A DNA stretch of 64,000 nucleotides from Streptomyces kaniharaensis (GTDB lineage Bacteria > Actinomycetota > Actinomycetes > Streptomycetales > Streptomycetaceae), in the NCBI RefSeq assembly GCF_009569385.1, contig NZ_WBOF01000001.1, forward strand, positions 5,651,501 through 5,715,500, in the 5' to 3' direction. This document shows, one piece after another, positions 8,579-19,519 of the stretch (positions within the stretch are counted from its first letter, which is position 1; every line of letters begins with the position of its first letter). A program made the translations under genes and the position numbers. The notes under the pieces were generated by a model. The model saw only the letters and a list, made by a program, of their open reading frames with translations. It did no database searches and was not told the origin of the DNA.

Positions 8579-10405
<1,827 letters not shown>

Positions 10406-11925: not shown

Positions 11926-13017
11926 TTACGAGTCGCGCGCCCACCACTTCCGCAGCACGTCCTCCGCCGGCTTCCCGTGGGGTGTGTACGCGAGGTTCTT
12001 CGCCGTCTCGCCGCTGTCGGGCCAGTCGTCCCACATCCACCAGCAGACGCCGGCCCACCAGGGCTTGCCGTCGAAGGAGGCGAGCAACGCCTCGTAGGCG
12101 GCGGCCTGTTCGGTCTTGCCGTCGCCGTCGCTCTTGCTGATGCTCCAGGAGTACGGGGCGGTGGTCGTGCCGCGCTGGCTGACGTAGCCGGCCTCGGTGA
12201 AGAGGATCTTCCGGTGCTGGCGCTCGGAGAAGGCGGCGAGCTCGGCGGCGATGGGCTGCCACGCCTGGCGCAGCCGTGCCGGGTCGGTCGTCGCCTGGTC
12301 GGCCAGCGGCCAGTACGCGTCGATGCCGATGACGTCGAGGTCCTGCCAGAAGGGGATCTTCTGGTACTCGTCGTAGTTGGCGGCGTACGTCAGCTTCCCC
12401 TTGTACCGGTCCCGGATCGCGGCGATGACCTTGCTCCAGTGCTCGCCGTCCTGCGAGGTGCCCGCGAGTTCGGTGCCGACCGAGAGCTGCTCGACGCCGT
12501 TGTCGGCGGCGAGTTGGGCGTAGTGGGTGATGAAGCGTTCGTAGGCCGCGAACCAGGCGTCCCGGTCCTTGGGCTTGATCTCGGCCCGGTCGCCGCCCTT
12601 CACCAGGTCGACGTGGGGCTTGATCATGGTCTTGAGCCCCGCGTCGTGGGCGAGGCGGATGATGCTGCGCAGGCTGTCGTCGGAGGCGGTCTCCTTGGTG
12701 GTGCGCATGTCCGAGTCGGTGACGCGGTCCTGGTACCACGTGGGGGTGAAGGTCACCCACCGGGCGCCGGTGGCGGCGATCTGCCGCAGGTACGTTCCGG
12801 CCTGCGGGCTGTCGTAGTCGTGGGTGTTCCACGAGGGGAGCGTCATGCCCCGGAACTCGCCCGCGTTCCCGTCGTCGGGTCGGGTGCTCGGACCGCTGGC
12901 CGAGGGACTGGGCTGCGGCGTGTCCTCTTCGTCGCCGCCGGACGAGGAGCATCCGGCGCCGACGAAGAGGACGACCAGCGCCGACCAGGCCGCGGCCATC
13001 CTCTTCATCGGGTTCAC
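11926..13017 (-). CDS. Lipoprotein with TIM-barrel glycoside hydrolase domain (GH113-like)
   Basis: The 363-aa protein has a lipobox ending at Cys23 (LFVGAGC), a Ser/Pro/Asp-rich spacer to about residue 52, and then a (beta/alpha)8 domain. Candidate catalytic acids are Glu183 in SVGTELAG (end of strand 4) and Glu275 in LFTEAGY (end of strand 7), the clan GH-A layout; the closest family I can name is GH113 beta-mannanase-like. As a surface lipoprotein it could trim or hydrolyse an exported polysaccharide. It is 30 bp downstream of the DUF2334 gene and almost certainly shares its transcript. Its place opposite a polysaccharide synthase operon suggests a self-polymer substrate; this is inference. 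Confidence 0.8.
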   Translation of the reverse strand: MNPMKRMAAAWSALVVLFVGAGCSSSGGDEEDTPQPSPSASGPSTRPDDGNAGEFRGMTLPSWNTHDYDSPQAGTYLRQIAATGARWVTFTPTWYQDRVTDSDMRTTKETASDDSLRSIIRLAHDAGLKTMIKPHVDLVKGGDRAEIKPKDRDAWFAAYERFITHYAQLAADNGVEQLSVGTELAGTSQDGEHWSKVIAAIRDRYKGKLTYAANYDEYQKIPFWQDLDVIGIDAYWPLADQATTDPARLRQAWQPIAAELAAFSERQHRKILFTEAGYVSQRGTTTAPYSWSISKSDGDGKTEQAAAYEALLASFDGKPWWAGVCWWMWDDWPDSGETAKNLAYTPHGKPAEDVLRKWWARDS

Positions 13018-13047
13018 TGCTGAGAATTCCTCACCTGGTCAGGACGT

Positions 13048-14922
13048 TCACTTGGCGAGGTCCGTCGGGCCGACGAAGGTGTAGCCGAGGGCCTTGATGC
13101 CGTCGATCGTCTGTTGGAGCGGGGTCACGTCGTAGTACGGGTGGTAGAAGAAGCTCGCCACACCGTCCCGGACCGCCAGGTTGGCCTTGGCCGAGGCGAT
13201 CAGATCGGCCGGAAGCCTCGCCGGGTGGTTGTTGAAGGGCAACGGCTCGTAGTTGCCGATGTTCTCGGGAAGCACGGTCGTCCCGTAGACGTCCTTGACC
13301 GCGTACGGGAAGAACTGGCCGATGTAGCGGCCGGGATTCACGGTTCCGCCGCTCAGCGTTCCGGCGAAGTACAGCGGGCGCTCCAGCCGCGCCGTGTAGT
13401 TCTGACCGAAGACCTGGTAGTCGGCGGCCGAGGCGGCGTAGTGCGGGGTCGTCCAGAGCGCGGGCTTGGGCAGGCCGGCCGCGGCGAAGGCGGCGAAGGC
13501 CGAGGTCACCCGGTTCTGGGCCCAGGCCGGGGAGTCCTCGGCGTGCGGCCCGTCGTAGATGACGTTGTTGGCGGCGTCGATGTGGGCGCGGAAGAACTCG
13601 AAGTCGTCGCCCGTGACGGCGGTGTAGGGGTTGTTGACGTTGTTGTACTGGTGCGTGTAGCCGTGGTTCATGAGGACGGCGCCGTGCTGGAGCATGTACT
13701 GGAGCACGGCGACGACCTGCGGGGCCTGGGCCAGGGTGACGGTCTCGGGCTTCCCGTTGTTGTAGACCCCCTTGGGATCGGCGTAGACGGGGATGACGTT
13801 GATTCCGTACGGGATGTTCTGCGAGGCCAGGTAGTCGGCCATGGTCCGCAGCTCCGTCGGGTCCGACTTGGGGCTGATGTCCTCCAGCCGCACGAACGCC
13901 CGGTGGCGCTCGGTGGTCGCCGGGGCGAGGGCGTCGAAGAGGAGGTCCTCGAAGGCGATCACGCGGTCCGACTCGGAGACGTAGGAGAAGGGGATCTCCC
14001 CCACGTAGGTGAGGTTGGCCGAGCGGATCGCCCACGGGCTGGTGTTCCCGGTGATGGCGTCCGTGGCCTGCGCGAGCTGGGTGACCTGCGGGTAGCCGCC
14101 GCCGGAGAGGGCGGGGTGCAGCACTCCGCCGTCATAGCCCGTGGGGATCTTCCGGGTCAGCGACTGGTTCTTGTACGTGACCTGGTTGATGCGGCCCACG
14201 CTGCCGTTGGTCTCGAAGTAGGAGTTGGTGGGGTCCCAGCCGTACTTCTTCTTGAAGTTCTCGATGCCGACGGCGTTGGCCATGTTCCAGACGTTGTCGC
14301 CGATCCAGTTGATCGGCTTGCCGGTGGTCATCGCGTCCTGGTAGAAGGCCGCCGGCACGGCGTCGGGGATGGAACCGCCGTAGTAGGTCGAGCCGATGTA
14401 GATGGTGGCGGAGTACTGCTCCACCATGCCCGCGGTGTACGCGGAGACCGGCTTGGAGGTGACGGTGCCGAAGTGGCCGGCGAGGTTGGCGATCGCCATC
14501 GCGTAGAGCTCGCCGAGGTAGCCGTAGGGGCCGGTCGTGTCGTAGAGGACGAGGGTCGAGGTGCCGGCGGAGGTGCTGGAGGCCGACGTGTCTGCCGCGG
14601 CGTCCAGGGGCCGGGCGGACGGGCCCTCGACGGTGGCCTTGGGGGCCGCGGCCGTGGCCGGGGTGATGGTGAGCTGGTGCGCGTGGCGCTCGCGGTCGTT
14701 CTCCAGCCGCGCGGCGCCCCAGGCCATCAGGTCCTCGGTGCCGGTCGTGGAGGTCGAGGCGGGGCCGATGCCCTTGAGCCCGTGGGACGGACGCGGCGGC
14801 TTCCCGCCCTTTGTCACCGCCTCGGCGCCCGTGGAAAGCGCGACGCCACCCAGTAGGGCGGTGGTCACGGCAAGGACGAGCGAGACCCGGGAAACCGGAG
14901 TTCTCCCTCTCACATTCTTCAT
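13048..14922 (-). CDS. Secreted DUF2334 protein (polysaccharide deacetylase-like)
   Basis: The protein has 624 aa, with a signal peptide (1 to about 34) and a Ser/Thr/Ala-rich linker to about 115. An N-terminal domain containing LVLYDTTGPYG and YIGSTYYGG is followed by a C-terminal domain of the DUF2334 class, a distant relative of NodB-type polysaccharide deacetylases. Metal-site-like elements include RLEDISP, MNHGYTHQYN and a late SFFYHPYYD. Deacetylases of this kind act on extracellular amino-sugar polymers. It is the first gene of the leftward half of a divergent locus whose other half makes UDP-ManNAc and a GT2 synthase. A G-rich ribosome site (GGGGGGA) precedes ATG 14922. Confidence 0.82.
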   Translation of the reverse strand: MKNVRGRTPVSRVSLVLAVTTALLGGVALSTGAEAVTKGGKPPRPSHGLKGIGPASTSTTGTEDLMAWGAARLENDRERHAHQLTITPATAAAPKATVEGPSARPLDAAADTSASSTSAGTSTLVLYDTTGPYGYLGELYAMAIANLAGHFGTVTSKPVSAYTAGMVEQYSATIYIGSTYYGGSIPDAVPAAFYQDAMTTGKPINWIGDNVWNMANAVGIENFKKKYGWDPTNSYFETNGSVGRINQVTYKNQSLTRKIPTGYDGGVLHPALSGGGYPQVTQLAQATDAITGNTSPWAIRSANLTYVGEIPFSYVSESDRVIAFEDLLFDALAPATTERHRAFVRLEDISPKSDPTELRTMADYLASQNIPYGINVIPVYADPKGVYNNGKPETVTLAQAPQVVAVLQYMLQHGAVLMNHGYTHQYNNVNNPYTAVTGDDFEFFRAHIDAANNVIYDGPHAEDSPAWAQNRVTSAFAAFAAAGLPKPALWTTPHYAASAADYQVFGQNYTARLERPLYFAGTLSGGTVNPGRYIGQFFPYAVKDVYGTTVLPENIGNYEPLPFNNHPARLPADLIASAKANLAVRDGVASFFYHPYYDVTPLQQTIDGIKALGYTFVGPTDLAK

Positions 14923-15457
14923 TGCTGTCCCCCCTGATTTAAGTTTTTTGCCGGTTGTTCACCCGAGGTGCCCCGGTAAAACTGGTGGAGGCGCATCGAT
15001 GAAGCCCCGACAGTTTTCTGATTCTTACGCCAGGCCGGGGGAGTGTCAATAGGACGCCGCGGTCCAGACCAGGCATTTAATGACAGCCCGACTTGCTCTC
15101 CGGCAAAGCGAGACAAGTCAGGCATGCTGGATGGTTCGATGAGTCGAGGGCGGAGACGGGGAATGCCCGGGTCGCCGATGCAGGCGATCCCGAATCCGCA
15201 GGTGGAATCGCGTTTCGAGCAGCCTCTGGTTCTCGGCGGCGTAAAGCCGAAGATCATCGCCGAGTATGAGCGGCGGGACATGTGGGGCAAGGGGTGTTGG
15301 TGGACCCGCTCGCCGTGGGAGTGCGGCGAGACGACGGCGCGACGAATGGTACAGACCATTAATCCCATGCGTCACACTGGCCTCGGTACCGGGCAGGACC
15401 GGCGCGCCGGCCCGCGGAATTAAATGTTCCGATTCCACATGCCTCACGATTAAGCGC
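14923..15457. other. Long divergent control region of the exopolysaccharide-like locus
   Basis: This stretch lies between the DUF2334 gene and the promoter of the synthase operon and is visibly richer in A/T than its surroundings. Open frames on both strands lack ribosome sites and use codons unlike the neighbouring genes, so I call none. It must hold the leftward promoter and probably binding sites for regulators of both transcripts. I could not match it to a known riboswitch class by eye. Confidence 0.5.
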
Positions 15458-15485
15458 CTGACCCGTGCTTGTCGTCTGATAGCCT
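15458..15485 (+). promoter_or_regulatory. Candidate promoter of the synthase operon
   Basis: CTGACC (15458-15463) and TAGCCT (15480-15485) are spaced by 16 bp and fit a vegetative-type promoter. The predicted start near 15492 would give a short leader made almost entirely of the two hairpins that follow. Confidence 0.45.
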
Positions 15486-15495
15486 CCGTGCACAC

Positions 15496-15535
15496 GCCTC
15501 GGGACGACGGGCGAGGCGAAATCCGGGGGGATTTC
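15496..15535 (+). promoter_or_regulatory. Two abutting hairpins immediately before the start codon
   Basis: GCCTCG (15496-15501) pairs with CGAGGC (15512-15517). Directly adjoining it, GAAATCC (15518-15524) pairs with GGATTTC (15529-15535) around a GGGG loop; the ATG follows at 15536. The purine-rich ribosome site lies in the loop and 3' arm of the second hairpin, so folding would control its access. This suggests translational regulation of the operon. Confidence 0.6.
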
Positions 15536-15736
15536 ATGTACGGTAAACCCGCTTTGGGTATAGTCCTGCCCTTGGCCGGACTGACGGCGGCCCCAGAAGT
15601 TCTGCCGGGCATACCCTTTGCCAGGGGACTGCAGGAAGTGGCCGGTGCCGGATTCCTGCTCTACTGCGCGACGGCCGCCGCTCTTCTTCTGGCCAAATTC
15701 TGGTTCGTTCTCCGGAACTCTGGTGAACGTCGATGA
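15536..15736 (+). CDS. Small two-helix membrane protein, first gene of synthase operon
   Basis: The product is 66 aa. Residues about 6-25 and 35-58 are hydrophobic with a short amphipathic turn between them; the C-terminus ends in a basic cluster. It is too short for a homology call. The ATG at 15536 follows a G6A ribosome site held in a hairpin. The stop codon overlaps the next ATG (ATGA at 15733-15736), indicating translational coupling to the GT2 synthase. Small membrane partners such as PgaD are needed by poly-amino-sugar synthases, so a synthase accessory role is likely but inferred from position and topology. Confidence 0.72.
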   Translation: MYGKPALGIVLPLAGLTAAPEVLPGIPFARGLQEVAGAGFLLYCATAAALLLAKFWFVLRNSGERR

Positions 15737-16986
15737 TCACGGAGGTTCTTCTCTGGTCGAGCATCGCCATCATCGTGATGGCGGGCTGCTACAACTCCAC
15801 TCTCTTCGTCCTCTCCCGACGCCGGGTCCGCCGCGACCAGGGCCCGCGCGCCGAGCGTCTCTACGTCTTCCTCCTCGCCTGTCTGAACGAGGAGAAGGTC
15901 CTCTCCGAGAGCCTGGCCCGGATCACCTCACTGCCGGCCGGCAACTTCATGGCCCTGGTCATCGACGACGCGTCCGAGGACCGCACCGCCGACATCGCCC
16001 GCGCCGCCGACCCCGACCGGGTCAAGCTCCTCCAGCGGCAGCTGCCCAACGCCCGCAAGGGCAAGGGCGCCGCCCTCAACGCCGGCATCCGCCACCTGCG
16101 GGAATCCGGCATCCTCGACGGCCACGACCCGAGCGACGTCATCGTCTGCGTGGTGGACGCCGACGGCCGCCTCGACCCACACGTCGTCCAGGCCGTCGAC
16201 CCCTACTTCGACGACCCGCGCACCGGCGCCACCCAGGTCGGCGTGCGCATGTACAACCGCCAACAGGGCCTGCTCGCCCGGCTCCAGGACATGGAATTCG
16301 TCATCTACGGCGACATCTTCCAGTCCGCCCGCCGGTTCTTCGGCAGCGTCGGCATGGGCGGCAACGGCCAGTTCATGCGGCTCTCCGCGCTGGACACCCT
16401 CAGCGACGAGAACGGGAACGGGCCGTGGAGCGACTCCCTGACCGAGGACCTCGACCTCGGGGTGCGCCTCATCGCCGGCGGCTGGACCAACCACCACTGC
16501 ACCACCGCCGCCGTCTCCCAGCAGGCCGTGCTCGACGTGCGCCGGCTGGTGCGCCAGCGGTCCCGCTGGTTCCAGGGCCACCTGCAGTCGGCCGGGCTGG
16601 TCCCGCTGATCCTGCGTGAAGTGCCCACGAAGGCCGCGATCGACCTGCTGTACCACCTCTCCAGCCCCGTGCTGATCCTGCTCACCTCGCTGCTGCCGCT
16701 CTCCTTCGTCGTCGCCACGGGCGGCGTCGTGATCGGCTCCATCGAGGCCGGCCACCCGCTGATGTCGCCCATGTGGATCATCGGCCCGTACGTCCTGTCC
16801 TTCACCGCGGCGTACGCGTACGGCTGGGTCTACTCCCGGCGCGAGCGCGGACTCGGTCTCGTCCGCGCGGTCCTGCTCTCCCACGTCTTCGTCATCTACG
16901 GCTACATCTGGTTCGCCGCCGGATGGTGGGGCCTGTGGCGCATGCTCACCGGCAAGCAGACCTGGCTCAAGACCGCGCGCACCTGA
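15733..16986 (+). CDS. Processive family 2 glycosyltransferase (membrane polysaccharide synthase)
   Basis: The 417-aa inner-membrane enzyme has one N-terminal helix, a cytoplasmic GT-A domain and three or four C-terminal helices. All signature motifs of processive inverting synthases (BcsA/PgaC/HasA type) are present: the IDDAS block (77-81), DADG (142-145, the DxD metal site), TED (237-239, catalytic base) and QRSRW (275-279, the QxxRW acceptor motif). Such enzymes polymerise and export a sugar from its UDP form. Because UDP-GlcNAc 2-epimerase follows 51 bp downstream, the donor may be UDP-ManNAc, or UDP-GlcNAc with the epimerase serving something else. It is translationally coupled to the 66-aa membrane protein. 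Confidence 0.88.
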   Translation: MITEVLLWSSIAIIVMAGCYNSTLFVLSRRRVRRDQGPRAERLYVFLLACLNEEKVLSESLARITSLPAGNFMALVIDDASEDRTADIARAADPDRVKLLQRQLPNARKGKGAALNAGIRHLRESGILDGHDPSDVIVCVVDADGRLDPHVVQAVDPYFDDPRTGATQVGVRMYNRQQGLLARLQDMEFVIYGDIFQSARRFFGSVGMGGNGQFMRLSALDTLSDENGNGPWSDSLTEDLDLGVRLIAGGWTNHHCTTAAVSQQAVLDVRRLVRQRSRWFQGHLQSAGLVPLILREVPTKAAIDLLYHLSSPVLILLTSLLPLSFVVATGGVVIGSIEAGHPLMSPMWIIGPYVLSFTAAYAYGWVYSRRERGLGLVRAVLLSHVFVIYGYIWFAAGWWGLWRMLTGKQTWLKTART

Positions 16987-17037
16987 CGCGCGCCCATCCC
17001 TTCCCGTACCTCAAGCAAGCACCCTCTAGGGAGACCC

Positions 17038-18231
17038 ATGTCCCCGAACGTCATCACCACGCCCGTCCGCGCCATGCTCGTCCTGGGCACCCGTCCGGAA
17101 GCGATCAAGCTCGCGCCCGTGGTCCGCGCGATGGCCGCCTCCCCGCACTTCGAGCCCCTCGTCGTCAGCACCGGCCAACACCGCGAGATGCTGCAGCAGA
17201 TGCTCGAACTCCTGCAGGTCGAGGCCAAGGTCGAGCTCGACGTGATGAGAGAGCGGCAGGAACTGTCCAAGCTGACCGCCCGGCTGGTGGACGGGCTGGG
17301 CGAGGTCGTCCACGCCGAGCGCCCCGACCTCGTCGTCGTCCAGGGCGACACCACCTCCGCGTTAACCGGTGCCCTCGCCGCGTTCTACGAGCACATCCCC
17401 GTGGCGCACGTGGAGGCCGGGCTGCGTACCGGAGTTCTCGACAACCCCTTCCCCGAGGAGCTCAACCGCCGTCTCATAGGCCGCATCGCGCGCTGGCACT
17501 TCGCGCCCACACCCCGCGCCGCCGGGCACCTCACCGCCGAAGGCGTACCGGCGGCCGAGGTGTTCGTCACCGGCAACACCGTCATCGACAACCTGCTGTG
17601 GGTGCTCGAACAGGGCGCCGGCCGCGACCACTTCCGCAGCGACCTGCGGCGCGTCCTGGTCACCCTGCACCGCCGCGAGAACCAGGGCGACAAGATGCGC
17701 GCCATGGGCAAGACCCTGCGCCGGCTGGCCGACCGCGGCGACGTGGAGATCGTGCTGCCGCTCCACAAGAGCCCCGCCGTCCGCGAGGCCCTGCTGCCCG
17801 AGCTGTCCGACCACCCGGACATCCGGATCGTCGAGCCGCTGGACTACGTGGACTTCTCCGCCACCCTGGCCGGCTGCGACCTCGTCCTGACCGACTCCGG
17901 CGGCATCCAGGAGGAGGCCCCCACCCTCGGCAAGCCGGCCCTGGTGCTGCGCACCACCACCGAGCGGCCCGAGGCCGTGGAAGCCGGCGCGGCCCAACTG
18001 GTGGGCACGGATCCGCAGGTCATCCTGGACGCCGCCGTGCGGCTGCTGGACGACGAGGAGGCGTACCGGACGATGGCGAAGGCCGGCAACCCCTTCGGTG
18101 ACGGGCACGCGACGGAACGGATCCTGGCGCAGCTGGCCGAGGACTTCGGGGTGGACACCGCCGCGGCGCCCGCGCTGAACCCGCTGGTCGTCCCCCAGCC
18201 CGACGGTCCGGGGTCATACTCGACGGCATGA
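17038..18231 (+). CDS. wecB: UDP-N-acetylglucosamine 2-epimerase (non-hydrolysing)
   Basis: The 397-aa cytoplasmic GT-B-fold enzyme interconverts UDP-GlcNAc and UDP-ManNAc. The nucleotide-binding start GTRPEAIKL (about 15-23), the central histidine/arginine block HRRENQG, and the C-terminal DSGGIQEEAPTLGKP loop match the bacterial non-hydrolysing family. RBS AGGGAGA precedes ATG 17038. The TGA overlaps the ATG of the next gene (ATGA, 18228-18231). No UDP-ManNAc dehydrogenase is nearby, so the product is likely used as ManNAc rather than oxidised to ManNAcA. Confidence 0.92.
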   Translation: MSPNVITTPVRAMLVLGTRPEAIKLAPVVRAMAASPHFEPLVVSTGQHREMLQQMLELLQVEAKVELDVMRERQELSKLTARLVDGLGEVVHAERPDLVVVQGDTTSALTGALAAFYEHIPVAHVEAGLRTGVLDNPFPEELNRRLIGRIARWHFAPTPRAAGHLTAEGVPAAEVFVTGNTVIDNLLWVLEQGAGRDHFRSDLRRVLVTLHRRENQGDKMRAMGKTLRRLADRGDVEIVLPLHKSPAVREALLPELSDHPDIRIVEPLDYVDFSATLAGCDLVLTDSGGIQEEAPTLGKPALVLRTTTERPEAVEAGAAQLVGTDPQVILDAAVRLLDDEEAYRTMAKAGNPFGDGHATERILAQLAEDFGVDTAAAPALNPLVVPQPDGPGSYSTA

Positions 18232-18896
18232 CGAGAGTTCACCGGCTCCTCGCCCTCGCACTGCTCGCCGCCGCCGCGATGGCGGGGCTCGCCTTCACGG
18301 TGAGCGACATCGGGGGAGGCGGGGACGAAGAGCCGGCGCGGCCGTGGACCGACGGTTCGGTCCACGGCCCGTGGCGGTCGGTCTTCGACGGCCACGGCGA
18401 GAACACCGGCCTCCACAACGGCCTGGCCCTCTCGCCCAAGGCCGCGCAGAAGGCGGAGGAGACCCACGCCGGACTGATCGTCTCCACCCAGCAGTACCAG
18501 GACATGGACCTCCAGGCCCGCATGCGTACGGTCGCCCAGCTGCGCACGCCCAATCCCAATCCCTGGGAGGTGCCGTGGCTGGTGTGGGCGTACTCCGACC
18601 CGGAGCACTTCTACTACCTCATCCTCAAGCCCAACGGCTGGGAGCTGGGCAAGCGCGATCCCGCCTACCCCGGCGGCCAGCGCTTCCTGGCGACCGATTC
18701 CGAGCACTTCCCCATCGGCAGGTGGTCCGAGGTGAAGGTGGCCCAGCGCGGCGCGCACATGGAAGTGAGCGTCGACGGCAAGGACCTGGTGGCCTACGAG
18801 GACCGGGAACATCCGTACCTGCGCGGCAGTATCGGGGCGTACACGGAGGACGCCCGGGTGGTGTTCAGCGACATCGCGGCCGAACCGGCGGAATAG
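18228..18896 (+). CDS. Secreted jelly-roll (LamG/DUF1080-like) protein, last gene of synthase operon
   Basis: The 222-aa protein has an N-terminal signal peptide or membrane anchor (about 5-25) followed by a beta-sandwich domain with alternating aromatic strands (VWAYSDPEHFYYLIL, LRGSIGAYTEDARVVFSDI). This matches concanavalin-like domains of the LamG or 3-keto-disaccharide hydrolase (DUF1080) group. No catalytic residues can be assigned. Its start overlaps the epimerase stop by four bases, so it is produced with the synthase machinery and most likely binds or processes the exported polymer outside the membrane. A bidirectional hairpin lies 44 bp downstream. Confidence 0.8.
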   Translation: MTRVHRLLALALLAAAAMAGLAFTVSDIGGGGDEEPARPWTDGSVHGPWRSVFDGHGENTGLHNGLALSPKAAQKAEETHAGLIVSTQQYQDMDLQARMRTVAQLRTPNPNPWEVPWLVWAYSDPEHFYYLILKPNGWELGKRDPAYPGGQRFLATDSEHFPIGRWSEVKVAQRGAHMEVSVDGKDLVAYEDREHPYLRGSIGAYTEDARVVFSDIAAEPAE

Positions 18897-18982: not shown

Positions 18983-19519
18983 TCAGTCGGTGGGGTTGAG
19001 GCTCCAGCGCTGGTTGGTGTGGTTGTCCGCGTACCACTGGATCACCGGGGTGCCGTCGTTCGCGTTCGCGCCGGCCACGTCGAGGAGGAGGCCGCTGCGG
19101 AAGTTGACGACGGCCAGGGTGTCGCCGTTGACGTTGACCCGCCCCCAGCGCTGGTTGTCGCCGCCGTTGCAGGTCCACTGGCCGATCGCCGTCCCCGCGG
19201 CGGTGCTCCAGCCCGGCACCTCCATGCACTTGCCGCTGTTGACGTTGACGACGTAGCCGTTGCGGACCTGCCACTGCTGGTTGTCGTCGCCCGTGCAGGC
19301 CGCCTGGCGCACGGGCGCGCCGTCGTCCGTGCGCGAGTCCGCGACCTCGAGGCACTTGCCGCTGAAGGCGGCCCGGATCTCCACGGCGGAGTCGGCCGAG
19401 AGCGGGACGAAACCCGAGGCCGAGGCCGGCACGGCGGCCAGCAGCCCGGCACCCAGGCCGAGGGCGAGCACGGCGGCGGACGAGCCGAGGCGGCGCTTGA
19501 CGGTGGAGTGGATGGTCAT
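18983..19519 (-). CDS. Secreted ricin B-type lectin (CBM13 beta-trefoil)
   Basis: The 178-aa protein has a signal peptide (1 to about 35, AxA-type cleavage at ASA) and a single beta-trefoil with three QxW repeats (DNQQW, DNQRW, TNQRW) spaced about 45 residues apart, the ricin B lectin signature. It carries no catalytic domain, so it is a stand-alone carbohydrate-binding protein. The ATG at 19519 follows the same GGGGGGA ribosome site used by two genes of the neighbouring polysaccharide locus, a hint (not proof) of related expression. It converges on the synthase operon across a shared terminator. The ligand is unknown; galactosides or the local polymer are possible. Confidence 0.88.
   Translation of the reverse strand: MTIHSTVKRRLGSSAAVLALGLGAGLLAAVPASASGFVPLSADSAVEIRAAFSGKCLEVADSRTDDGAPVRQAACTGDDNQQWQVRNGYVVNVNSGKCMEVPGWSTAAGTAIGQWTCNGGDNQRWGRVNVNGDTLAVVNFRSGLLLDVAGANANDGTPVIQWYADNHTNQRWSLNPTD

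Follow-up and report, generated by a model that had tools for sequence, protein, structure and literature searches.

In poly-N-acetylglucosamine (PNAG) systems (PgaABCD, IcaADBC) a processive glycosyltransferase of family 2 (GT2) is accompanied by an adjoining small membrane partner and by an extracellular deacetylase and hydrolase; the bifunctional MatB is the counterpart of these systems in Streptomyces, and we know of no PNAG system that contains an epimerase. In the Pel and galactosaminogalactan (GAG) systems (PelA, Agd3/CE18) a deacetylase gives an amino-sugar polymer a positive charge and a hydrolase cleaves it. For the N4 glycan receptor (NGR) system of Escherichia coli, genetics indicates that the GT2 protein NfrB uses uridine diphosphate N-acetylmannosamine (UDP-ManNAc) made by WecB for a surface polymer (PMC8669469, PMC8669472). 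Here a locus of six genes from Streptomyces kaniharaensis was analysed, which lies in a stretch of 64,000 nucleotides of contig NZ_WBOF01000001.1 (positions 5,651,501 to 5,715,500 of the forward strand), referred to as the window. The locus combines a GT2 synthase and a non-hydrolysing UDP-N-acetylglucosamine (UDP-GlcNAc) 2-epimerase with a predicted deacetylase, a glycoside hydrolase, a jelly-roll protein and a membrane protein of 66 residues (Table 1), and it is likely to make a secreted, partly de-N-acetylated exopolysaccharide that contains ManNAc.

Table 1. Features of the putative exopolysaccharide locus, with positions counted from the first nucleotide of the window.
Feature	Position	Strand	Basis
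GH113 lipoprotein-like glycoside hydrolase gene, product predicted to be secreted	11926-13017	-	PF22612, E 3e-56
DUF2334 gene, product predicted to be secreted, with CE4/NodB-type deacetylase fold	13048-14922	-	PF10096, E 5e-56
Divergent intergenic region	14923-15535		sigma-70-like site for the DUF2334 gene and conserved elements 5' of the small ORF
Open reading frame (ORF) for 66-residue protein with a single transmembrane segment	15536-15736	+	counterparts in relatives, dN/dS
Processive-type GT2 polysaccharide synthase gene	15733-16986	+	PF13641, E 1e-22
Non-hydrolysing UDP-GlcNAc 2-epimerase gene (WecB/MnaA type)	17038-18231	+	TIGR00236, 454 bits
Jelly-roll protein gene (PF06439 / GH16-like), product membrane-anchored or secreted	18228-18896	+	PF06439, E 5e-7

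By analogy, the closest functional precedent is the NGR system (NfrB/NfrA/WecB), as both pair a single GT2 carrying DxD, TED and QxxRW motifs with a non-hydrolysing UDP-GlcNAc 2-epimerase, and the window locus would work in a similar way. It is not taken to be a member of that system, because NfrB has a C-terminal MshEN domain for cyclic di-GMP (c-di-GMP), which the window GT2 lacks, and an outer-membrane partner for export, and because the two synthases are only remotely similar (blastp E 6e-4). The window also adds deacetylase-like, GH113 and jelly-roll genes within one locus. The DUF2334 and GH113 proteins do not have the domains of PgaB or IcaB, and the Pel and GAG systems use other synthases and another sugar, N-acetylgalactosamine (GalNAc). 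The features tested thus place the locus outside the PNAG, cellulose and Pel systems.

All six ORFs were open and intact, and the active-site residues of the GT2, epimerase, GH113 and DUF2334 proteins were likewise intact. Reading of the sequence revealed ATGA overlaps that couple the 66-residue ORF to the GT2 gene (15733-15736) and the epimerase gene to the jelly-roll gene (18228-18231). Both overlaps had been reported in a first-pass annotation of the window, and the names that it gave to the six genes were borne out by Pfam and NCBIfam profiles. The cluster boundaries that it proposed fit the conserved unit, because the flanking glmS and ricin-type lectin genes were not seen next to the cluster in the relatives nearest to it; glmS (8579-10405) was rejected as a cluster member for this reason, as was the lectin gene (18983-19519), which is not conserved with the cluster.

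The GT2 protein is 417 residues long and matched only glycosyltransferase families in Pfam. The motifs listed for it earlier as DDA, DADG, TED and QRSRW were recovered (the first as DDAS), with key residues invariant in 15 relatives, and the DD, DxD, TED and Q(x)xRW signature together with N- and C-terminal transmembrane helices is that of a processive GT2. A structure model with a predicted local distance difference test (pLDDT) score of 85 contained a GT-A domain with one N-terminal and four C-terminal helices of membrane length. The best Foldseek match of the model was the Chlorella virus hyaluronan synthase 8snc, with a template modelling (TM) score of 0.71, and further matches were to cellulose synthase (BcsA) and chitin synthases. 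Because the modelled fold matches that of these three groups of enzymes, the GT2 probably acts processively and exports the chain itself. Grouping with characterised synthases for cellulose, hyaluronan or PNAG, which had been named beforehand as speaking against the proposal, was not seen for the sequence. The best NCBIfam match was the XrtP-associated glycosyltransferase family NF053846 at 283 bits, below its cut-off of 520, compared with 65 bits for the PgaC/IcaA profile TIGR03937 (cut-off 422) and 51 bits for NodC. Identity to E. coli PgaC by blastp was 27% and the match to BcsA was marginal, and on the profile scores membership of the PNAG and cellulose synthases was rejected.

The epimerase exceeded the TIGR00236 cut-off of 210 bits by a wide margin (454 bits) and scored 88 bits against the NeuC_NnaA profile, for which the cut-off is 236. 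It matched PDB entry 3ot5 with an E value of 3e-104 and contains the active-site motifs GTRPEA, QGDTT, HVEAGLRT, PEELNRR and HRREN. It is the sole PF02350 protein of the S. kaniharaensis genome, in which searches for WecG/TagA-type transferases and for UDP-ManNAc dehydrogenases found neither, leaving the GT2 as the one candidate user of UDP-ManNAc among recognised enzymes. The single nucleoside diphosphate (NDP)-sugar dehydrogenase of the genome gave 347 and 338 bits with UDP-glucose 6-dehydrogenase profiles and 162-165 bits with those for UDP-ManNAc dehydrogenase, so that the lack of a dehydrogenase first noted for the locus holds genome-wide. Because the genome has one epimerase and lacks both a UDP-ManNAc dehydrogenase and a WecG/TagA protein, the epimerase product most likely goes to the GT2 of the same locus. 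Its oxidation to N-acetylmannosaminuronic acid (ManNAcA) is unlikely, since the sole NDP-sugar dehydrogenase scores as the UDP-glucose type. Two other fates of UDP-ManNAc were rejected, namely a ManNAcA-type product resembling teichuronic acid or enterobacterial common antigen (ECA), for want of a detectable UDP-ManNAc dehydrogenase, and a TagA/WecG linkage unit, for want of such a protein in the genome.

Linkage of the two genes was measured in 70 Streptomyces genomes, in which the wider GT2 family is represented by 58 loci. Joint conservation of synthase and epimerase had been set beforehand as a test, and a PF02350 epimerase was found within 5 kb of the GT2 in 50 of the 58 loci, compared with about 0.15% expected by chance. 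Both genes were present in 44 genomes, the GT2 only in 1, the epimerase only in 5 and neither in 20 (Fisher P 6e-12, which is a guide only because the loci share descent). The genes are paired in differing orders and orientations and in many contexts, and on a plasmid of Limosilactobacillus fermentum (L159:3052-6119, the L numbers denoting loci of the survey) a GT2 with 30% identity and the same best NCBIfam family lies near wecB. This pairing across rearranged loci, genera and the Limosilactobacillus plasmid, together with the lack of another recognised UDP-ManNAc user in the genome, argues against a synthase that uses UDP-GlcNAc to make a PNAG- or chitin-like polymer while the epimerase serves another pathway or tunes the donor pool. 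Such an arrangement appears quite improbable, even though among characterised synthase families PgaC/IcaA gives the highest profile score, at 65 bits still far under its cut-off of 422, and PNAG systems likewise have a deacetylase and a hydrolase. As an observation in its own right, the Limosilactobacillus gene pair makes it possible that a ManNAc polymer is encoded on a plasmid of a food bacterium.

Conservation of the whole unit was surveyed by scanning genome contigs and then comparing the loci gene by gene. The co-occurrence check proposed in the first-pass annotation gave the complete six-gene set in 36 further actinobacterial loci. The gene order of the window was kept in 33 of these, mostly from Streptomyces (many of them verticillate) and including Kitasatospora aureofaciens; the remaining three are from Actinomadura, with the GH113 gene moved or turned. 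Streptomyces rubellomurinus is another carrier of the locus. A core of GT2, epimerase, DUF2334 and jelly-roll genes also occurs in Actinocorallia, in distant Streptomyces (L052-L054) and in one uncultured actinobacterium, and in rearranged order in Acidithrix and related metagenome-assembled genomes. Partial sets, in which GT2 and DUF2334 genes are joined by either the epimerase or the jelly-roll gene, were found in Planomonospora, Spirillospora, Dactylosporangium and Amycolatopsis, and one copy lies on a Streptomyces plasmid, where it is annotated as deacetylase, GT2, wecB and "family 16 glycoside hydrolase". The six-gene arrangement is far beyond a chance neighbourhood. A GlmS paralogue adjoins DUF2334 in the three distant Streptomyces loci (L052:3361-5202, L053:13024-14865 and L054:4310-6151), plausibly as an extra supply of UDP-GlcNAc. 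In Planomonospora (L104:10305-13867 and L108:10354-13885) two tandem DUF2334 genes lie 3' of the GT2, and the adjoining genes seem to encode components of flagellar export.

The AlphaFold2 model of the DUF2334 protein (pLDDT 80) gave top Foldseek matches that were all CE4 deacetylases (best E 3e-7), and its predicted fold is that of a CE4-type deacetylase. The Asp-His-His metal site and catalytic His of CE4 enzymes correspond to D348, H420, H424 and H594, residues placed by motif rather than by superposition, and the position of the CE4 base is occupied by Glu347 instead of Asp. E347, D348 and H424 were invariant, while H420 and H594 were kept in 21 of 24 relatives and replaced in the other three. 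Comparison with solved structures including Agd3 gave no single-sequence match and only chance-level or fragmentary profile matches, and the 50 structures that best matched the model in fold did not include Agd3. PF10096 was detected in 6 of the 70 Streptomyces genomes, exactly the six that carry this type of GT2, and because of this confinement the predicted deacetylase appears to be tied to the product of this synthase type.

The GH113 protein scored 191 bits with its Pfam family (cut-off 27). This family is known for beta-1,4-mannanases (PMC9032380), and the protein resembles them over the full domain, matching the beta-1,4-mannanase 3civ in the PDB with an E value of 4e-34. Its catalytic pair, E183 and E275, aligns with that of the mannanase, and both residues are kept in 95% or more of 39 sequences. 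In almost every close relative the gene lies beside the GT2, and in locus L111 the hydrolase slot is occupied by GH26, which is another family of beta-mannanases. To judge by family assignment, GH113 and GH26 in this slot would suit a manno-configured beta-glycan, although they do not prove one. Where other loci have the hydrolase, L052, L053 and L112-L115 have as neighbour an unclassified secreted protein with glycosidase-like motifs; in L052 and L053, where the protein is encoded next to the GlmS paralogue, these are W[E]VGNEIN and FWWYYAED, and by eye the protein resembles that of Acidithrix L112. The jelly-roll protein, which presumably binds or processes the polymer, has a W/E/K/D core conserved over 46 sequences.

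In a tree of 76 GT2s obtained by a quick search, 22 DUF2334-linked synthases including that of the window formed one clade with an SH-like approximate likelihood ratio test (SH-aLRT) value of 97, and two Amycolatopsis DUF2334 loci fell outside it on a long branch. By sequence the closest family is NF053846, which belongs to actinobacterial exosortase loci and has no assigned function. Its members, too, occur with a UDP-GlcNAc 2-epimerase, and short membrane peptides are often encoded 5' of their GT2 genes. The window synthase differs in its score, in its separate clade and in having DUF2334, GH113 and jelly-roll partners instead of an exosortase, and it is best placed in a sister clade with a deacetylase. 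No exosortase was found at the locus or in the S. kaniharaensis genome, so the neighbourhood expected of NF053846 is absent. Across 121 loci DUF2334 was present in 55, an exosortase in 28 and both in none, and the epimerase was present in 103. Because the epimerase is so widespread while DUF2334 and exosortase are mutually exclusive, supply and polymerisation seem to be shared throughout the family, with differing fates outside the cell. Exosortases (XrtP/R/S-like) occur in L042, L044, L046, L047, L056, L060, L061, L064 and others, often coupled directly 5' of the GT2 and with secreted proteins bearing PEP-CTERM-like tails encoded nearby. Another branch of the GT2-epimerase pair, seen in many Streptomyces (L034-L041, L066, L068, L069), is flanked by folC and valS and has ndk and mreBCD as neighbours; a GH18 gene often adjoins it, and the other gene names there were assigned by inspection.

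All 40 loci compared (L071-L110) had a counterpart of the 66-residue ORF 5' of the GT2, with a ratio of nonsynonymous to synonymous substitution rates (dN/dS) of 0.10-0.28, which indicates purifying selection, and because of these two observations the ORF is read as a real gene. Its product has one predicted transmembrane segment (residues 35-53) and no family match in Pfam or NCBIfam. It may be a helper of the synthase by analogy with IcaD or PgaD, a role suggested by coupling and position, not homology. In many loci short peptides starting with MY, with an LAxTG-like motif and one transmembrane segment, are encoded just 5' of the GT2 (for example L043:9420-9599, L045:9413-9568, L056:14473-14619, L060:7039-7251, L104:8660-8992 and L105:8786-9004), and the 66-residue protein looks like a degenerate form of these, with LPLAG in place of LAxTG. 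The GT2 could accordingly be imagined to glycosylate the coupled peptide, or another anchored acceptor, in a system that anchors proteins and is related to the exosortase branch, given that related loci have exosortases with such peptides directly 5' of the GT2 and that some members of the window's own clade (L104, L105) retain LAFTG-like motifs. This is very improbable, however, as the 55 DUF2334 and 28 exosortase loci do not overlap, the Streptomyces peptides of the clade have lost the motif, the genome of the window has no exosortase, and the deacetylase and hydrolase genes point to a polymer.

Several observations weigh against a ManNAc polymer. Eight of the 58 family loci have no epimerase nearby, nor do the two Planomonospora DUF2334 loci, and the exosortase and GH18-linked branches make it plain that the products of relatives may differ. 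Since the epimerase works in both directions and the cell always contains UDP-GlcNAc, an epimerase adjoining the synthase does not prove that UDP-ManNAc is the sole donor, and a mixed polymer is conceivable. A bifunctional synthase resembling hyaluronan synthase would then make a chain of GlcNAc and ManNAc, with the epimerase supplying part of the sugars. The nearest solved folds are indeed hyaluronan synthases, which handle two donors at one active site, and the branch with GH18 carries a family acting on GlcNAc polymers; the hydrolase slot, however, holds families known for beta-mannanases and the sequence has no sign of second-donor use, which makes a mixed chain rather unlikely. Finally, the one Streptomyces GH113 enzyme assayed, a soluble member of clade 3 that need not come from such a locus, was inactive on mannans (PMC9032380). 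That inactivity would fit a ManNAc substrate and equally some other substrate.

For the partly deacetylated ManNAc exopolysaccharide, the following route can be proposed. The epimerase would convert UDP-GlcNAc to UDP-ManNAc, and the GT2, aided by the 66-residue membrane protein, would polymerise the sugar and extrude the chain through its own membrane channel, as in hyaluronan and cellulose synthases. Outside the cell the DUF2334 enzyme would strip part of the N-acetyl groups to leave positively charged mannosamine, the GH113 lipoprotein would cut or trim the polymer, and the jelly-roll protein would act on it as suggested above. We infer the donor use, polymer composition, beta linkage, substrates of deacetylase and hydrolase, and helper role of the small protein. 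A narrower version is offered tentatively, in which the product is a beta-linked ManNAc homopolymer partly deacetylated to polymannosamine, the GH113 clade is its hydrolase, and the large GT2-epimerase family of actinobacteria has two branches, one that modifies the polymer, as at this locus, and one that employs exosortases. The reading in the first-pass annotation was thus supported. Its author knew of no described streptomycete system with these genes, and a literature search found no poly-ManNAc system in Streptomyces, no DUF2334-containing ManNAc locus and no description of this gene set. It had overlooked the wide GT2-epimerase family, the exosortase branch, the NfrB/WecB precedent and the standing of GH113 as a beta-mannanase family.

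In the divergent intergenic region a sigma-70-like site for the DUF2334 gene was predicted at 15049-15021 on the - strand, and conserved elements precede the 66-residue ORF; a simple -35/-10 pattern search for a promoter of the synthase operon found none. An inverted repeat, CGCCTC...GAGGCG (15495-15530), with a loop of variable length lies directly 5' of the ribosome-binding site of the 66-residue ORF and is conserved in most relatives; it is possibly an operator or leader hairpin. Compared with locus L073 the window has about 257 bp extra in this region (15090-15346), part of which aligns, with about 72% identity, to Streptomyces plasmid sequence that carries no annotation.

If the narrower version is true, beta-ManNAc/polymannosamine would be the 2-epimer counterpart of chitin/chitosan. 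Work on the genetics of a phage receptor led to the proposal that E. coli makes a ManNAc polymer with a single synthase, and no such system is known to be described in the Streptomyces group. The enzymes for deacetylation and cleavage of the E. coli polymer are not known, and the window locus offers candidates for both in one compact set and in easily cultured bacteria. The locus could therefore yield enzymes to make and cut a new cationic amino-sugar polymer, and it suggests roles for DUF2334, for an unexplored clade of GH113 and for the XrtP-associated glycosyltransferases of unknown function.

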